A stretch of DNA of 37,617 bases from a virus: IMG/VR virus record IMGVR_UViG_3300007734_000654, positions 1-37,617 of that record. One strand, written 5' to 3'. The notes beneath the pieces are model-generated. The model searched no databases. It saw nothing but the letters and a program-made list of their open reading frames with translations, and had not been told where the DNA came from. Numbering within the stretch: the first letter of the stretch is position 1; every line of letters begins with the position of its first letter. The position numbers and the translations under genes were made by a program. Of the stretch, positions 1 to 37,617 are shown in pieces.

Positions 1-99
1 AATACGAACGCAATTAACCAAATAACTTTCACCGTAGACGGCGGCTCAAACTTCGTCCAATACTCGACCGCATCCCTTTACGGCATCCTCAAAGCATAG
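1..99 (+). CDS. 3' end of the third tail adhesin (copy of the gene at 37083-37589)
   Basis: This partial reading frame encodes the last 32 residues of the adhesin whose full copy is at 37083-37589, including the NFVQYS...LYGI ending shared with its two upstream paralogues. It exists only because the contig ends overlap. It should be counted once in the genome. Confidence 0.9.
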   Translation, partial: NTNAINQITFTVDGGSNFVQYSTASLYGILKA

Positions 100-127
100 G
101 AGAAACAATGGAAACCCGAATCGAAAT
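1..127. repeat. Terminal near-identical repeat (circular contig overlap)
   Basis: Bases 1-127 match 37491-37617 at 125 of 127 positions. The only differences are two adjacent bases (CA at 106-107, AC at 37596-37597) just before a start codon. The repeat runs through the end of the last tail gene and the start of the next. The simplest reading is the overlap of a circularised assembly; 127 is also a common largest k-mer in short-read assemblers. A biological terminal repeat cannot be excluded from sequence alone. Confidence 0.9.
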
Positions 128-7411: not shown

Positions 7412-7571
7412 TCATATTAACGATTACCAATTTTCAGATAATCGTTACTGTGTTAATTGTGAAAAAACTTTCACAGTTGATATAGATGTGTGCAATTCTA
7501 TTCAGTATTGGAATTGCCCTAAGTGTTTGCGAGAGTACCAATCAGATAACCAACTAACAGGAGGCAAATGA
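7401..7571 (+). CDS. 56-residue double zinc-knuckle protein
   Basis: The GTG at 7401 is chosen because AAGGGGAGG lies just before it; the open frame continues up to a TTG at 7377, but that lacks a ribosome site. The protein has Cys/His near the start (SCNHIND), then YCVNCEKTF and WNCPKCLREY, a zinc-ribbon pattern. It overlaps both neighbours. Function unknown. Confidence 0.65.
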   Translation: MSCNHINDYQFSDNRYCVNCEKTFTVDIDVCNSIQYWNCPKCLREYQSDNQLTGGK

Positions 7572-8023
7572 TGCAAACCTTTTTACCGTACGCAGATTTT
7601 CATACAACTGCTAAATGTTTAGACTATAAACGATTAGGCAAACAACGAGTAGAGGCTTGGCAGATTCTTAATGCGTTGCGTGGCAAAACAAAAGGTTGGG
7701 TAAATCACCCCGCAACTGTTATGTGGCGTAATTACGAACAAGCACTAATCCAATACGCAATAGTTATTTGCGAAGAATGGATTTCGCGCGGTTACAAAGA
7801 CACATTATTGCCACGATTCAAAGCAGAAGTTCTAACCAACAATCCAGAAATGCCCTGGTGGTTAGGATTAAAAGAATTGCACCGTTCACACCAATCTAAT
7901 TTGCGACGCAAAGATGCAGTCTTTTACAAGTTCAATGTAAAAGATAACTTGCCTTATGTGTGGTGTAACACAGATGGTACTTACTACAAAACCCAACCAA
8001 CTCAACTAAAAGAAAAGGGATAA
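7568..8023 (+). CDS. MSMEG_6728-family / pyrimidine-dimer-glycosylase-like protein
   Basis: A 151-residue protein. It carries the family signature TFLPYADF, LDYKRLGKQRVEAWQIL, GWVNHPATVMWRNYEQALIQY, RGYKDT, LHRSHQSNLRRKD and LPYVW. This family is related to T4 endonuclease V-type pyrimidine dimer DNA glycosylases (Pyr_excise), although activity of this branch is not well established. A role in UV repair would suit a sunlit aquatic phage. Alternatively it could act on modified bases. Two ATGs in tandem (7568, 7571) are both possible starts; the first overlaps the previous stop and follows GGAGGCAA. Confidence 0.82.
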   Translation: MMQTFLPYADFHTTAKCLDYKRLGKQRVEAWQILNALRGKTKGWVNHPATVMWRNYEQALIQYAIVICEEWISRGYKDTLLPRFKAEVLTNNPEMPWWLGLKELHRSHQSNLRRKDAVFYKFNVKDNLPYVWCNTDGTYYKTQPTQLKEKG

Positions 8024-15112: not shown

Positions 15113-15121
15113 GAGAAAAGG

Positions 15122-15171
15122 GAACGCGCGTCTGTTTTGTTTGCCTGCTAGCGATATTCAGGCGCGCGTTC
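15122..15171 (+). terminator. GC-rich hairpin with nested stem
   Basis: GAACGCGCG at 15122-15130 pairs perfectly with 15163-15171. Inside the loop, CCTG 15144-15147 pairs with CAGG 15159-15162 and abuts the outer stem. Flanking GAGAA/TTCTC can extend it. There is no T-run. It separates the replication block from the sugar cassette. Confidence 0.6.
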
Positions 15172-15202
15172 TTCTCATAGAAACATTTATTAAGGAGAAG
15201 GA

Positions 15203-16252
15203 ATGTCGTTAAGAATACTTTTAACTGGTGCTGGTGGTTTTGTTGGACATCACACATTAGAGCATCTGTTAAAAAATACTGATTGGGAAATTGTTGCCCT
15301 AGATAGTTTTAGAAATAAGGGATTCAGTTCAAGACTTAGAAGCGTATTTGCGGCTAATCCGCACGAAGTTAAACGCGTTACTGTTATCACGCATGATTTA
15401 ACTACACCCATTGATATTGTTACAAGCACAAATATTGGCAAAATAGATGTAATCATTAACAATGCCTCTGAATCTCATGTTGATAGAAGCATTACACACC
15501 CACGACCATTTGTAGAAAACAATGTTTCGCTTGCTATTACAATGTTAGAATACGCGCGAACAGTTGAAAATCTAAAAGTTTTTGTACAAGTCAGTACAGA
15601 TGAAGTTTATGGTCCAGCAATAGATGGACTTCCACACCCTGAATATGACACTATGCTTCCGTCTAATCCTTATTCAGCGAGTAAGGTATCGCAGGAAGCA
15701 ATAGCAATTTCATATTGGCGAACATACGACATTCCCGTAGTAATTTCTAACACAATGAACATTATCGGTGAGCGTCAAGACATAGAAAAGTTTATCCCCA
15801 AAACAATGGTTAACATTTTAGCAGGAAAGAAAATGAATGTTCACTCTAATTTTATAGATGGCAAGTGGGTATCTGGCACTAGATACTACCTACACGCTCG
15901 CAATCAAGCAGATGCACTACTATTTGCCATTAAACATTGTTGCAAAAACCCTAATAAGTTTTCAGAAGGAATTAAACGCCCACACAGATTCCATGTGGGT
16001 GGAGAACGCGAAGTTGCTAATGATGAAATGATTTCCCTTATTGCTGAATATATGAACATGAAAGGCGATTGGGTTAATTATGAAGATGTTGGAATGACTA
16101 GACCAGGACACGATTTAACTTATGCGTTAGAGCGAACAACATTAGACGAGTGGGGTTGGGTAGCACCTATTCCATTCAAGGATTCACTTAAACAAACCGT
16201 TGAATGGACAATGAAAAATAAAGAATGGTTGTTAGGCGAGGAAAGTGCCTGA
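15203..16252 (+). CDS. rmlB: RmlB-like NDP-glucose 4,6-dehydratase
   Basis: A 349-residue extended short-chain dehydrogenase. It has the NAD-binding GAGGFVG, ASESHVDRSI, T132-D133-E134 in STDEVYG (the catalytic trio of 4,6-dehydratases, unlike the SS...YG of epimerases), Y157/K161 in YSASK, and RPGHD with TVEWTMKN near the end. RmlB turns dTDP-glucose into dTDP-4-keto-6-deoxyglucose. No other rhamnose pathway gene is present. It is the first gene of the sugar cassette, with AAGGAGAAGG, and overlaps the mutase gene by 8 bases. Exact substrate (dTDP- or another NDP-sugar) is not certain. Confidence 0.85.
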   Translation: MSLRILLTGAGGFVGHHTLEHLLKNTDWEIVALDSFRNKGFSSRLRSVFAANPHEVKRVTVITHDLTTPIDIVTSTNIGKIDVIINNASESHVDRSITHPRPFVENNVSLAITMLEYARTVENLKVFVQVSTDEVYGPAIDGLPHPEYDTMLPSNPYSASKVSQEAIAISYWRTYDIPVVISNTMNIIGERQDIEKFIPKTMVNILAGKKMNVHSNFIDGKWVSGTRYYLHARNQADALLFAIKHCCKNPNKFSEGIKRPHRFHVGGEREVANDEMISLIAEYMNMKGDWVNYEDVGMTRPGHDLTYALERTTLDEWGWVAPIPFKDSLKQTVEWTMKNKEWLLGEESA

Positions 16253-17366
16253 CTTAATAGTTGGCGGGGCTGGCATTTTTGGATTAACCATTGCCGAACG
16301 AGCCGCTTCTAGCGGATACAAAGTTATTATCGTTGAAAAAAAAGACATTATTGGCGGCAATATGTCATCTTACAATGATGAAAAAACAGGAATTGAAGTA
16401 CATAAATACGGTTCACACATTTTTCATACCTCTAATGAAATTGTTTGGGAGTATGTAAATCGCTTTACAGAGTTTGTACCATACACACACAGAGGCAGAA
16501 CTGTTACTGCTAACAATAAAGTTGTACCGTTACCATTTGGATTAGCATCATATAGTGCATTTTACGATAAACTTTTCACACCTGAATCAATGCAAGAACA
16601 TATTAAACAATTTGCAAACCATACTGGAAATGATTTTGAAAGTGTTGCAATTAGGTCTATCGGCAAAGATTTATATGAAAATGTTGTAGAAGGTTATACA
16701 AGAAAGCATTGGGGAAGAAATCCAAAAGACTTACCTTCAAGTGTTATTAAACGCCTTCCTGTTCGTGAAACTTTTGATGATAATTATTTTACGGACACAT
16801 ATCAAGGAATACCATCAAGCGGGTATCAAGCGTGGTTAGAAAAAATGGCAAACCACGAAAACATAACAGTTCAATTATCTTGTGACATTTTAGATTACAA
16901 ACACACATCACCGTTAGTTTATACAGGCGAACTTGATGCTTTTTTTAATTACAAGTTTGGTCGTTTAGGTTGGCGGTCAGTAGATTTTATTGAAGAAAGA
17001 TTAGACATAGACAACTATCAAGGTTGCTCAATAGTTAATTATGCTGATTATGAAATTCCTTACACGCGCGTACACGAATATAAACACTATCGCCCTGACA
17101 AAAATTCGCATGGAACAATTATTCATAAGGAATATCCGCGCGAAACTTTACCTGGCGAAGTAGGTGCTTATCCTGTTAACGCTATACAAGACAAAGAAAA
17201 GTTACAAAAGTATCGTAATGCTGTTTCAGAGTTAGAAGGCGTGTGGTTTGGTGGAAGATTAGGGTCTTACAAGTATATAGATATGCACGCCGCTATCGCA
17301 TCAGCATTAACACTTTGGAACAATAAAGTGAAACCTTATCTGGAGGAACAATGTCGCACAGCATAG
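16245..17366 (+). CDS. glf: UDP-galactopyranose mutase family (Glf)
   Basis: A 373-residue flavoenzyme, full family length, with a GTG start at 16245 inside the end of the dehydratase gene. It has the FAD-binding GGAGIFGL and EKKDIIGGNM, then VHKYGSHIFHTS, YTRKHWGRNPKDLPSSVIKRLPVR (the substrate/phosphate Arg region), HEYKHYRPDK, and GRLGSYKYIDMHAAIASAL. Glf converts UDP-galactopyranose to UDP-galactofuranose. Paired with an RmlB-like enzyme it may instead work like Fcf2, which makes dTDP-fucofuranose; sequence cannot tell. It overlaps the ParB-like gene by 16 bases. Confidence 0.93.
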   Translation: MPDLIVGGAGIFGLTIAERAASSGYKVIIVEKKDIIGGNMSSYNDEKTGIEVHKYGSHIFHTSNEIVWEYVNRFTEFVPYTHRGRTVTANNKVVPLPFGLASYSAFYDKLFTPESMQEHIKQFANHTGNDFESVAIRSIGKDLYENVVEGYTRKHWGRNPKDLPSSVIKRLPVRETFDDNYFTDTYQGIPSSGYQAWLEKMANHENITVQLSCDILDYKHTSPLVYTGELDAFFNYKFGRLGWRSVDFIEERLDIDNYQGCSIVNYADYEIPYTRVHEYKHYRPDKNSHGTIIHKEYPRETLPGEVGAYPVNAIQDKEKLQKYRNAVSELEGVWFGGRLGSYKYIDMHAAIASALTLWNNKVKPYLEEQCRTA

Positions 17367-18040
17367 AACTTGTAGCACTAGAAAACTTAAATCCCAATCC
17401 ACTTAACCCTAAAAGTCACGACAATGTGTTAATAAACAAATCATTTTCTGCTTTTGGTTATATAGACCCAATAGTTGTTGATGAGCGCACAAATTATATG
17501 ATTAGTGGTCACGGCCGTCATGAAGTATTAAAACAAATGAAAGAAAGTAATCAACCAGCACCCACCGGAGTTGTTGTTAAAAATGGTAAGTGGTTTGTGC
17601 CAATAGTTAAAGGGTGGGCATCAAAAGATGATACAGAGGCACGCGCCGCACTTGTAGCGTTAAATCGCACTAACGAACGCGGTGGTTGGGACAATGAAAA
17701 CTTATTTACAATCCTTCAAGAACTTTTAGAAAGTGATAAATTAGATTCAGTAGGATTTTTAGAAACTGATGTTCTAATGTTAGAACGCGCATTAGAAGCA
17801 GAAAATGTTTTTACACAAGACCTTTCCAAAGCAATAGATGAGTTTATTAACGAAACAGGCGTAGATATGGAAGGAAGGGTTGCACACTATTCAACGGTGT
17901 TGCGTGTTTATTTTCAGACAGAAGAATCACGCCAAGAGTTTTTTGAACTTATTAAATATCAAAATGAAGGAAAAAAACAAGCGTCAATCCGTTACCCTGC
18001 AACATTCGCAAGAGAAACGGCAGAACAATGGCAGGGATAG
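17351..18040 (+). CDS. ParB/sulfiredoxin-fold nuclease-like protein
   Basis: A 229-residue protein. The N-terminal 120 residues have the ParB fold: LVALENLNPNPLNPKSHD, SFSAFGYIDPIVVDE, the G53-H54-G55-R56 box in ISGHGRHEVLKQM, and a terminal EARAALVALNRTNERGGWD. The C-terminal half is helical. ParB-like proteins of this form often sit beside phage methyltransferases or TET/TAGT base modification genes and are thought to bind or nick DNA, but no exact role is known here. Overlap with both the mutase and the glycosyltransferase implies one functional unit. Chromosome partitioning is unlikely since no ParA is present. Confidence 0.82.
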   Translation: MSHSIELVALENLNPNPLNPKSHDNVLINKSFSAFGYIDPIVVDERTNYMISGHGRHEVLKQMKESNQPAPTGVVVKNGKWFVPIVKGWASKDDTEARAALVALNRTNERGGWDNENLFTILQELLESDKLDSVGFLETDVLMLERALEAENVFTQDLSKAIDEFINETGVDMEGRVAHYSTVLRVYFQTEESRQEFFELIKYQNEGKKQASIRYPATFARETAEQWQG

Positions 18041-18867
18041 AACCATCACTACAATTTCCCGTGTACATTAACACACGCGGCAGACCAACTACTCAATTAA
18101 CAGCCAATGCGTTACTTAAATTAGGGATAAAGCCAACACTTGTTGTTGAAAAAGCAGAAGAAGAAATATACAAATTACACAATCCCGAATGTAATGTTAT
18201 TGCCTGGCCGCAAAGATATTTTGATGACTATGAAAAAACGCCTGAACTAGACCCACACCCAACAACAGGAGTAGGACATAACTTTGCCTGGGACCATTCA
18301 AGAGACTTAGGGTTTACTCATCATTGGATTATGGACGACAACATAAGGTCGTTTCTTATATGGAACAAGGGCAGACGCGCTCATGTCGCTAACCCTAAAG
18401 CGTTACGCTGGCACGAAGATTTTATGTTAAAGTATGAAAACCTTGCTGGCATAAGTTTAGGTATGAGTTTTACAATGAAATCAACACCTATTGGATTAAA
18501 CACACGACTTTATTGCGCGGTGTTATACAGGAACGACTTAAACAAATACGGCATAACATACCGCAGAGGTATAAATGATGACACTATTGTTAGCCTAGAC
18601 ATTCTTAAAACTGGATATTGGTGTACCGCAGAGAGTCATATTGTAGGAATAGTTAAAGTAGGCACAAGTAGAAAAGGTCGCTTAGCCGGAGGCATGACAG
18701 ATTTCTATGCACAAGGCGGGTTTATTAAAAAGTCAGCAGAATTAGTAAGACTGCACCCTGACTGTGCAAAAACAGTAGTGAAGTTTAATCGTGTTCATCA
18801 TGTTGTGGATTACAAAAGATTTAAGCAACAACTCATTCCCGTTAAACCAGATGTAACAAAACCATGA
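18028..18867 (+). CDS. TET-associated glycosyltransferase (TAGT)-like protein
   Basis: A 279-residue GT-A-like glycosyltransferase. The start FPVYINTRGRPTTQLTANALLKLGIKPTLVVE is the nucleotide-sugar-binding Rossmann half. HHWIMDDNIRSF carries D103-D104-N105, the DxD-like metal/sugar-nucleotide motif. The IN-DDTIVSLDILKTGYWC region follows. This pattern matches the TAGT family, first defined beside phage TET/JBP dioxygenases and proposed to glycosylate hydroxymethylated pyrimidines in DNA. No TET/JBP gene occurs in the window. It overlaps parB by 13 bases and is followed closely by the terminase genes. Protein or cell-wall glycosylation are alternatives. Confidence 0.78.
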   Translation: MAGIEPSLQFPVYINTRGRPTTQLTANALLKLGIKPTLVVEKAEEEIYKLHNPECNVIAWPQRYFDDYEKTPELDPHPTTGVGHNFAWDHSRDLGFTHHWIMDDNIRSFLIWNKGRRAHVANPKALRWHEDFMLKYENLAGISLGMSFTMKSTPIGLNTRLYCAVLYRNDLNKYGITYRRGINDDTIVSLDILKTGYWCTAESHIVGIVKVGTSRKGRLAGGMTDFYAQGGFIKKSAELVRLHPDCAKTVVKFNRVHHVVDYKRFKQQLIPVKPDVTKP

Positions 18868-19022
18868 CAAAAGCAACATTATGGTTTGACTATTACTGTG
18901 TCGAGTGCGGTAGTGTTTATCAATGCCCAGACAGCGACTATTACACAAACGCAAATGTAACAGCGTTACCAAAACAAACAACTAAACAAGAAATTGTTAA
19001 TGAACACATAGGGAGTGAATAA
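18864..19022 (+). CDS. 52-residue Cys-containing protein
   Basis: Reads MTKATLWFDYYCVECGSVYQCPD near its start and ends in a short polar helix. The CxxC plus a third Cys may form a partial zinc site, completed by Asp, His or dimerisation. It overlaps the TAGT gene by 4 bases (ATGA) and the small terminase gene by 1, bridging the sugar cassette and packaging genes. Function unknown. Confidence 0.6.
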   Translation: MTKATLWFDYYCVECGSVYQCPDSDYYTNANVTALPKQTTKQEIVNEHIGSE

Positions 19023-19465
19023 TGGCTAACAGTAGAAAGGGAAAACACCTAGACCCTGACACACTAGAAAAAGAAGCACAAGTGTTATCTCTCAGGAGAT
19101 TAGGTTTCACTTTCGACCAGATAGCAAAACAATTAGGATACGCAAGTAGTAGCGGAGCCTATAACGCTTACCGTAGAGCCTGCCTTAAAATTATTTATGA
19201 AGAAGTTGAAGAAACCCGCAAAATGGAAATGGATAGGTTAGACAACGCACAAATGAGAATAATGACTGGCGTTAACAATGGAAACATTGCCGCCATTAAC
19301 ACTTTGTTAAGAATTATGGAACGCAGAGCAAGACTGTTAGGTCTAGACCAACCGATGAAGGCGCAAGTGGAAGTGACTAACTATGACACCAGCAGTATTG
19401 ACGCAGAAGTCTCCCGACTTGTCGCGCTCCTTAATAGCGGCACGCAGAGTCAACTGGACACATAA
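19022..19465 (+). CDS. terS: Terminase small subunit
   Basis: A 147-residue protein. An N-terminal helix-turn-helix (SLRRLGFTFDQIAKQLGYASSSGAYNAYRRAC) would recognise the packaging site, and a long central helix (EEVEETRKMEMDRLDNAQMRIMTGVNNGNIAAINTLLRIMERRARLLGL) would form the oligomer. The order before the large subunit supports this. The 3' end overlaps terL by 83 bases. Confidence 0.82.
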   Translation: MANSRKGKHLDPDTLEKEAQVLSLRRLGFTFDQIAKQLGYASSSGAYNAYRRACLKIIYEEVEETRKMEMDRLDNAQMRIMTGVNNGNIAAINTLLRIMERRARLLGLDQPMKAQVEVTNYDTSSIDAEVSRLVALLNSGTQSQLDT

Positions 19466-20729
19466 CCTTGCGCGCCCAGAGCAGTTACCAGACGAAGATT
19501 ACGAATGGCATACTTGGCTTTATCTTGCTGGTCGTGGTGCAGGGAAGACGAGGACGGCGGCAGAGTGGCCTGCTTGGCAGGCAACAAGGTTTCCAAAGAC
19601 TCGGTGGGCTATTGTCGCTCCTACATACTCTGACGCACGCGACACCTGTGCCGAAGGTGAATCAGGAATCATTAACATTCTCAGAGAGTACGGAACACTA
19701 AAAGATTACAACCGAAGTATCGGTGAAATCTTTTTAACAAATGGCACGCGCATTAAACTTTTCTCAGGTGAGGAACCTGACCGTTTGCGTGGACCACAGT
19801 TTCACGGTGGTTGGTTTGATGAGTTAGCGGCATTTAAGTACCCTGAGACTTGGGACCAGTATCAGTTTGGTTTGCGTCTAGGTAACGCTCCACAGACTCT
19901 TGTAACAACTACACCGCGTCCGACAAAGATTATTAAAGATTTGATTGCGCGTGATGGCATACGACTTATTCGCGGCTCAACTTTTGATAATGCTAAAAAT
20001 CTTGCCCCGTCTGCTCTTGCTGAATTAAAACTACGCTACGAAAACACGCGACTAGGCAGACAAGAATTATATGGCGAACTCTTAGAAAGCATAGAAGGCG
20101 CACTCTGGACACGCGAACTAATCGAATCGGCACGCGTACAGAACGCACCGCCACTCGTTCGTATCGTTGTTGGTGTTGACCCTGCTGTTACGAATAATGA
20201 GAATAGTGACCAGACCGGAATCGTTGCCGCAGGAATAACAGCAGACGGACATTATTATATTCTTGATGACAAATCTATTTACGCTTCACCTGATGCTTGG
20301 GCGCGCGTAGCGGTAACACTTTATCAAGACTTGAAAGCAGACAAGATTGTTGCTGAAACAAACAACGGTGGAGATATGGTTATTTTACTTATGCAACAAG
20401 TTGACCCCACAGTAGCAACAAAGAAAGTAACAGCAACGCGTGGAAAACAATTAAGAGCAGAACCCATATCAAGTCTTTATGAACAGAAAAGGGTTCACCA
20501 TGTAGGATACTTTCCTGAACTTGAAACGCAAATGTGTGAATGGACACCTGCTAGTAAAGATTCTCCCGATAGACTTGATGCGCTCGTGTGGGCTATTAGT
20601 GAATTAAATGCTGGCGGTTCCAGTATGCTTGCGTTAGCAAGTATGGCAGTATTGTGTCAAGCGTGTGGTATGCCGTCACCTAAAATGGCTAGTGTTTGCT
20701 TCACTTGTGGCACGCAACTGAAAGGTTAA
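19383..20729 (+). CDS. terL: Terminase large subunit with C-terminal zinc ribbon
   Basis: A 448-residue protein with ATPase motifs (Walker A AGRGAGKT at 49-56, Walker B GGWFDELAAF, the coupling TTTPRP) and an RNase H-like nuclease domain (VGVDPAVTNNENSDQTGIV, VAETNNGG, DSPDRLDALVWAI). It drives DNA into the prohead and cuts it. After the nuclease domain there is an unusual extra piece: C425, C428, C439 and C442 (CQACG...CFTCG), a zinc ribbon. The start at 19383 lies in the terS gene, behind GTGGAAGTGACTAACT. No downstream ATG precedes the ATPase region. Confidence 0.95.
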   Translation: MTPAVLTQKSPDLSRSLIAARRVNWTHNLARPEQLPDEDYEWHTWLYLAGRGAGKTRTAAEWPAWQATRFPKTRWAIVAPTYSDARDTCAEGESGIINILREYGTLKDYNRSIGEIFLTNGTRIKLFSGEEPDRLRGPQFHGGWFDELAAFKYPETWDQYQFGLRLGNAPQTLVTTTPRPTKIIKDLIARDGIRLIRGSTFDNAKNLAPSALAELKLRYENTRLGRQELYGELLESIEGALWTRELIESARVQNAPPLVRIVVGVDPAVTNNENSDQTGIVAAGITADGHYYILDDKSIYASPDAWARVAVTLYQDLKADKIVAETNNGGDMVILLMQQVDPTVATKKVTATRGKQLRAEPISSLYEQKRVHHVGYFPELETQMCEWTPASKDSPDRLDALVWAISELNAGGSSMLALASMAVLCQACGMPSPKMASVCFTCGTQLKG

Positions 20730-37083: not shown

Positions 37084-37589
37084 TGGCTACTACTTTTACA
37101 CTCATCAAAACTTATACACTCGCATCAGCCACCGCATCGTTCGACTTCACGTCAATACCAAGCACCTTTACCGACCTAGTAGTTAAACTATCCGTAAGAT
37201 GTAGCGACGCTGCACAAGACAGACAAGTCTTTATGTCATACAACGGATCAGGCACAAGCAAAGCATCCAGAGTATTACGAGGAAGCGGAAGCGCAGCCAC
37301 AAGTTACACCTCAACAAATATGGAAACATCACGAGCAGACGGAGCCGGATCAACTTCCAGTACCTTCTCGAACATCGAGGTCTACATACCAAACTACGCA
37401 GGATCAACATACAAAAGCGCATCATCTGACGGTGTAACAGAAAACAATGCCACAAGCGCATACGCCGAACTCGCTGCACACCTTTGGTCGAATACGAACG
37501 CAATTAACCAAATAACTTTCACCGTAGACGGCGGCTCAAACTTCGTCCAATACTCGACCGCATCCCTTTACGGCATCCTCAAAGCATAG
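37083..37589 (+). CDS. Tandem tail adhesin paralogue 3
   Basis: A 168-residue protein, again in a TAATG overlap. It begins TTFTLIKTYTLASATASFDFTSIPSTFTDLVVKLSV and ends LWSNTNAINQITFTVDGGSNFVQYSTASLYGILKA. Its middle is rich in Ser, Gly and Thr. It uses many C-ending codons, unlike most of the genome, as does the small gene after it. The 3' 99 bases are duplicated at the start of the window through the circular overlap. Confidence 0.78.
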   Translation: MATTFTLIKTYTLASATASFDFTSIPSTFTDLVVKLSVRCSDAAQDRQVFMSYNGSGTSKASRVLRGSGSAATSYTSTNMETSRADGAGSTSSTFSNIEVYIPNYAGSTYKSASSDGVTENNATSAYAELAAHLWSNTNAINQITFTVDGGSNFVQYSTASLYGILKA

Positions 37590-37597
37590 GAGAAAAC

Positions 37598-37617
37598 ATG
37601 GAAACCCGAATCGAAAT
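37598..37617 (+). CDS. 5' fragment of the gene at 108-329 (circular overlap)
   Basis: Only METRIE and two bases are present. It repeats the start of the small protein at 108 after the same AGGAGAAA leader, apart from the CA/AC difference. Not a separate gene. Confidence 0.9.

Follow-up and report, generated by a model that had tools for sequence, protein, structure and literature searches.

We analysed a stretch of viral DNA of 37,617 nucleotides (IMG/VR record IMGVR_UViG_3300007734_000654, positions 1 to 37,617; hereafter the window), which carries ahead of its terminase genes four overlapping genes for an RmlB-like dehydratase, a Glf-type UDP-galactopyranose mutase (UGM), a ParB-like protein and a glycosyltransferase of the TAGT family. 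We consider it most likely that this locus serves DNA modification and that its sugar donor is UDP-galactofuranose (UDP-Galf) or a related furanose. With a probability of roughly 0.6, it is an exchangeable cassette with which phages modify DNA, situated ahead of the terminase, and within it Glf would make the furanose donor for TAGT. The cassette consists of four open reading frames (ORFs) on the + strand with successive overlaps of 8, 16 and 13 bases:

15203..16252, + strand: RmlB-like NDP-sugar 4,6-dehydratase (Pfam, best PDB matches, Thr-Asp-Glu and YxxxK), probably accessory
16245..17366, + strand: Glf, UDP-galactopyranose mutase (Pfam, alignment with solved UGMs, tree), core
17351..18040, + strand: ParB-like N-domain plus small C-terminal domain (PHROGs, model), core
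18028..18867, + strand: TAGT, GT-A-fold glycosyltransferase (Pfam, PHROGs, model), core

The 279-residue product of the last gene matches PF20691 with an E-value of 8e-22 and 78.6 bits (cut-off 27.5), and its structural model (pLDDT 91.5) retrieves GT-A transferases at 1e-6 to 1e-5, including a UDP-Gal-dependent collagen galactosyltransferase as the best match and GnT-I. The DxD-like DDN motif is invariant in all 17 sequences compared. Profile and model thus both place the protein among the TAGTs with a predicted GT-A fold, as the original prediction, made from the letters of the window, had claimed. All motifs named there are present in the sequence, namely STDEVYG and YxxxK (as YSASK) in the dehydratase, RKHWGRNP in Glf, GHGR in the ParB-like protein and WIMDDN in TAGT. 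TAGTs of the T6 type (beta-glucosyl-HMC-alpha-glucosyltransferase, PHROG 842) are credited with placing glucose on hydroxymethylcytosine (HMC) that is already glucosylated (PMC13216743, PMC13390438). The TAGT of the window shares with them the family, the GT-A fold, the DDN motif and a conserved C-terminal region, but the window has no detected HMC enzyme, and its operon includes a UGM. Where alpha/beta-GT is lacking, TAGTs have been termed potentially novel transferases, and solitary TAGTs occur in 288 of 753 phage genomes that encode glycosyltransferases (PMC13216743). In the relatives L005 to L009 the TAGT gene encodes a fusion of two TAGT domains (572–595 aa). These tandem domains are divergent, the second being about 23–27% identical to the first (L005:4335-6053, L008:8001-9758 and L009:7977-9764).

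Glf matches the Pfam family GLF (PF03275) with an E-value of 5.8e-72 and 242 bits (cut-off 26), and its residues 3–363 align full length with solved UGMs (1e-107). Its FAD motif and the residues R174, R275, Y309, Y344 and D346 match those of solved UGMs and are invariant across the phage clade; we take these residues to be the active-site arginines, tyrosines and aspartate according to their roles in the UGMs of Mycobacterium tuberculosis and Klebsiella. By family profile and residues, Glf is an intact UGM with predicted activity, which upholds the mutase assignment made before. Homologues that stand alone are known from Rhizobium, Agrobacterium and Streptococcus phages (about 36–43% identity); where inspected, these differ from the Glf of the window in having no annotated TAGT, ParB or DNA glycosyltransferase alongside, and in Aeromonas phage 50AhydR13PP two unannotated genes neighbouring Glf gave no Pfam match.

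The close TAGT clade comprises 12 IMG/VR contigs with TAGT identities of 53–90%, and the informative relatives, whose contigs are long enough upstream, number nine (L002, L003, L005, L006, L007, L008, L009, L011 and L119). Related phages do link these genes, and a lack of any such linkage would have spoken against the original prediction: Glf precedes ParB and TAGT in 9/9 informative relatives, contiguously except in L007 and L009, where Glf and ParB are separated by a single cytidylyltransferase gene. The RmlB-like gene is found in the clade only in the window, L002 and L003. A terminase follows ParB and TAGT wherever the contig extends far enough and a match was detected. The identities of ParB and TAGT vary together (r 0.94), and both track the terminase large subunit (r 0.90–0.91), compared to r 0.63 for Glf. 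In a tree, the Glf of L009 groups with actinobacterial UGMs (support 95/89), apart from the Glfs of the window, L003, L005, L008 and L011, and forcing the six phage Glfs together is rejected marginally (approximately unbiased (AU) test, p 0.044). Since the L009 protein groups in this way, this lineage appears to have gained UGM activity anew in the same slot; this comparison of sequences is suggestive and would speak for the UGM product being functionally needed.

Further enzyme genes accompany TAGT in other loci. The cytidylyltransferase-like gene (HldE-C/TagD-like, L009:6848-7285) recurs beside TAGT in the unrelated L054, L059, L064, L074, L075 and L087. In L013, L015–L018 and L022, ParB and TAGT are followed by genes for a short-chain dehydrogenase/reductase (SDR) and a UDP-glucose dehydrogenase-like protein, possibly a phage-made donor set. 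Because such ParB-TAGT loci bring along these two enzymes, donor-making enzymes seem to be a recurring theme. A parallel layout with a different glycosyltransferase is seen in Streptomyces phage Zuko (L212, 1319-5650), in which an RmlB-like gene, a GT-B-like glycosyltransferase, a helix-turn-helix (HTH) gene and the terminase follow each other.

The dehydratase matches Pfam Epimerase/GDP_Man_Dehyd (2e-41), its best solved-structure matches are dTDP-glucose 4,6-dehydratases (3e-40), and the Thr-Asp-Glu of STDEVYG as well as YSASK align with solved RmlB. It does not belong to the core because its slot is either empty, with neither RmlB nor GalE ahead of Glf in L005, L006, L008, L011 and L119, or filled by GalE directly ahead of Glf in L007 and L009. 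The gene content of the relatives therefore suggests an accessory of one sub-lineage. A role in the making of the furanose itself would demand that RmlB produces a dTDP/UDP-4-keto-6-deoxyhexose, that a host reductase finishes it, that the mutase converts it to a furanose in an Fcf-like manner and that TAGT transfers it. The overlap of 8 bp with Glf in the window and L003, the position ahead of Glf in L002 and the intact Thr-Asp-Glu and YxxxK motifs agree with this route, which we nevertheless regard as very unlikely given the relatives without RmlB and the alignment of the window's Glf with ordinary UDP-galactopyranose mutases. Moreover, a 4-keto sugar lacks the 4-hydroxyl group, so that the furanose ring cannot close, and Pfam scans of nearly all window ORFs revealed no C4-ketoreductase or second SDR. 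Hence, the series from RmlB to the mutase and the dTDP-6-deoxy-furanose put forward earlier are disfavoured, as RmlB is mostly absent from the clade, is replaced by GalE in one lineage and has no phage C4-ketoreductase at its side.

The case for DNA draws on the ParB-like protein. While its gene has no Pfam match, PHROG ParB families match it (PHROG 620 at 1.2e-26), and its model resembles ParB-N structures (Foldseek 1e-4). The fold of ParB is that of a DNA clamp, and no ParA match was found among the window ORFs scanned. The small C-terminal domain resembles an 'MPEF' domain which elsewhere either is encoded by a separate gene of about 80 aa ahead of TAGT or is fused to TAGT at its N-terminus. 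In a wider set a ParB-like gene often lies near TAGT, with 59 loci in one similarity cluster; dozens of unrelated phages share this neighbourhood, some adding an SDR, a UDP-glucose dehydrogenase or a cytidylyltransferase. Because fusion proteins led the ParB profile into TAGT on iteration, the counts of its last round were not used.

The ParB of the window is 40–57% identical to those of Microbacterium cluster EC phages and mostly 15–29% to those of other TAGT loci. In Nicole72 and Megan, ParB is followed by two DpdA-like genes, QueC, QueD, QueE and FolE directly ahead of the terminase; preQ0 genes are mentioned in the literature as well (PMC12352058). In Cinna, and in the same order in Margaery, ParB stands with a TET/JBP-like protein and a P-loop nucleotide kinase 3, again directly ahead of the terminase, and Kozie carries genes for a TET/JBP-like protein, the amino-acid:DNA transferase ADDT, an FAD oxidoreductase and the P-loop kinase ahead of the terminase, with ParB at the opposite end of the linear record. 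The TET/JBP matches in these phages (2e-7 and 1e-5) lie under the Pfam cut-off. Genes of the Kozie (L225, 1-3273) and Cinna (L224, 1-2179) cassettes are annotated as hypothetical or oxidoreductase. These cassettes and that of the window are alike in the ParB subfamily and the slot before the terminase and differ in content, theirs holding 7-deazaguanine genes or TET/JBP-like genes with kinase or ADDT and that of the window a sugar mutase and TAGT. The same slot and ParB therefore appear to serve several known base-modification chemistries. That the nearest cultured ParB relatives head such cassettes is why a role in DNA modification is the most likely one, and it strengthens the link of ParB-like genes with base-modification loci drawn in the original prediction. 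The literature searched on ParB with TAGT or DpdA2 held nothing direct.

We propose that Glf would convert UDP-galactopyranose, made by the host or with the help of phage GalE in some relatives, to UDP-Galf, and that TAGT would move the furanose onto a base in phage DNA, perhaps before packaging. The ParB-like protein would recruit or position TAGT on the DNA, and in the lineage of the window the RmlB-like accessory may supply or tailor a second donor. Family assignments, UGM residues, gene linkage and the apparent replacement in place of Glf and of the enzyme upstream come from comparing sequences, and the folds of TAGT and ParB from predicted models. Several points weigh against this proposal: that TAGT uses UDP-Galf is something we infer, the test for re-acquisition of Glf is marginal, and both the palindrome content of the DNA and the absence of enzymes for making an acceptor speak on the same side.

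AGCT is observed once in the window compared to 92 expected occurrences, and 0/115 times in G002. Across the window, G002, G007, G008, G005 and L010, the palindromes AGCT, GATC, CCGG, GGCC, ACGT and CATG are nearly absent, varying by phage; no non-palindromic 4-mer is depleted in the clade. Palindrome avoidance differs from other TAGT loci with p 7e-5 in a rough hand tally that ignores relatedness. Among the comparison phages, lambda and the Aeh1 stretch are without such depletion, T7 shows it for GATC only and Nicole72 for AGCT and CTAG. This avoidance disfavours a blanket shielding of the DNA and leaves sparse modification unaffected. As an argument for excluding modification altogether it is weakened, since AGCT is also avoided (5 observed, 142 expected) by Nicole72, whose 7-deazaguanine gene set is complete. 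A variant of our proposal is that ParB guides TAGT to a few sites, e.g. near the packaging start, with a role in packaging or timing and no restriction shield. Such avoidance implies unshielded DNA and fits this variant, as do the clamp fold of ParB and the recurrence of the terminase downstream of both ParB-TAGT and the Microbacterium ParB cassettes; neighbour order is, however, only positional evidence, and we identified neither a pac site nor a site for ParB binding. We hold this variant to be rather doubtful.

With respect to the acceptor, no TET/JBP protein was found in G000 and 23 relatives, and neither a thymidylate synthase-like dCMP hydroxymethylase nor ThyX, P-loop nucleotide kinase 3, a 2-oxoglutarate oxygenase or a C5-methylase in the window or its relatives. 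Pfam scans of nearly all window ORFs gave no acceptor-making enzyme, and tblastn gave no homologues of the Microbacterium cassette enzymes. The TET/JBP context that the name TAGT implies, and that the original prediction mentioned for TAGTs in general, is thus not present. RB69-type arabinosylation is comparable in that a sugar other than glucose is placed on phage DNA, but RB69 attaches arabinose to 5-hydroxycytosine (PMC13390438), whereas the mutase in the window is one for galactose, and searches there turned up no gene for modifying cytosine. Since T6-like TAGTs are credited with acting on glucosylated HMC and no acceptor-making enzyme was found, TAGT in the window either uses a new kind of acceptor or acts on something other than DNA.

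In the latter case TAGT would put Galf on a virion or host protein or on a cell-surface glycan, which could mask antigens, exclude superinfection or alter a receptor. The host is likely an actinobacterium, judging from the nearest cellular Glfs retrieved, which are actinobacterial, and the nearest ParB and RmlB relatives, which sit in actinophages; a genome scan using the TAGT clade alignment yielded no prophage and no named host, and GC content ranges from 39 to 68% across the clade. Actinobacteria are known to carry Galf on their surface, the GT-A structure that matches best glycosylates collagen hydroxylysine, and many unrelated phages carry Glf with no TAGT nearby, some next to amidase genes. 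Against a target other than DNA stand the constant ParB partner, whose subfamily heads DNA-modification cassettes, the activity credited to T6-like TAGT and a cassette without a membrane or lipid-carrier gene, and we judge such a target unlikely.

For DNA modification with a furanose, a tentative further step is that a nucleobase receives galactofuranose with none of the known enzymes for hydroxymethylation or oxidation involved, by a new and ParB-targeted acceptor chemistry, with ParB serving interchangeable base-modification cassettes. The literature searched did not mention a galactofuranose donor for DNA that is made by a phage. If true, this would add a sugar to the anti-restriction repertoire of phages, provide a concrete substrate hypothesis for solitary TAGTs and define a slot next to the terminase, headed by ParB, in which one base-modification chemistry is exchanged as a whole for another.

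The cassette is framed by the following features:

15120..15173 (approximately), no strand assigned: hairpin with a stem of about 14 bp, flanked by an excisionase-like HTH gene and the cassette
18867..19021, + strand: stretch of about 155 nt between TAGT and the terminase small subunit gene, holding an ORF of about 52 codons
19022-19465, + strand: terminase small subunit, recurrent downstream neighbour
19383-20729, + strand: terminase large subunit, recurrent downstream neighbour

The hairpin (-29 kcal/mol, z -4.5) is probably a terminator or operator, and hairpins of unrelated sequence occupy the equivalent position in L003 (z -7.8) and L005 (z -5.1). ORF coordinates and folding thus confirm the predicted arrangement of overlapping genes between a hairpin and the terminase genes. 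L003 has overlaps identical to those of the window and no gap between TAGT and the terminase gene. The ends of the window (1-127 and 37491-37617) form an imperfect direct repeat with 125/127 bases alike, which suggests a near-complete, circularly permuted genome. Its genes are siphophage-like and include those for a portal, a Mu-F-like protein, a tape measure, Dit, an endolysin, RecT, a PDDEXK exonuclease, SSB and RusA. A pyrimidine dimer glycosylase resembling T4 endonuclease V is encoded at 7568-8023 and is common to several genomes of the clade.

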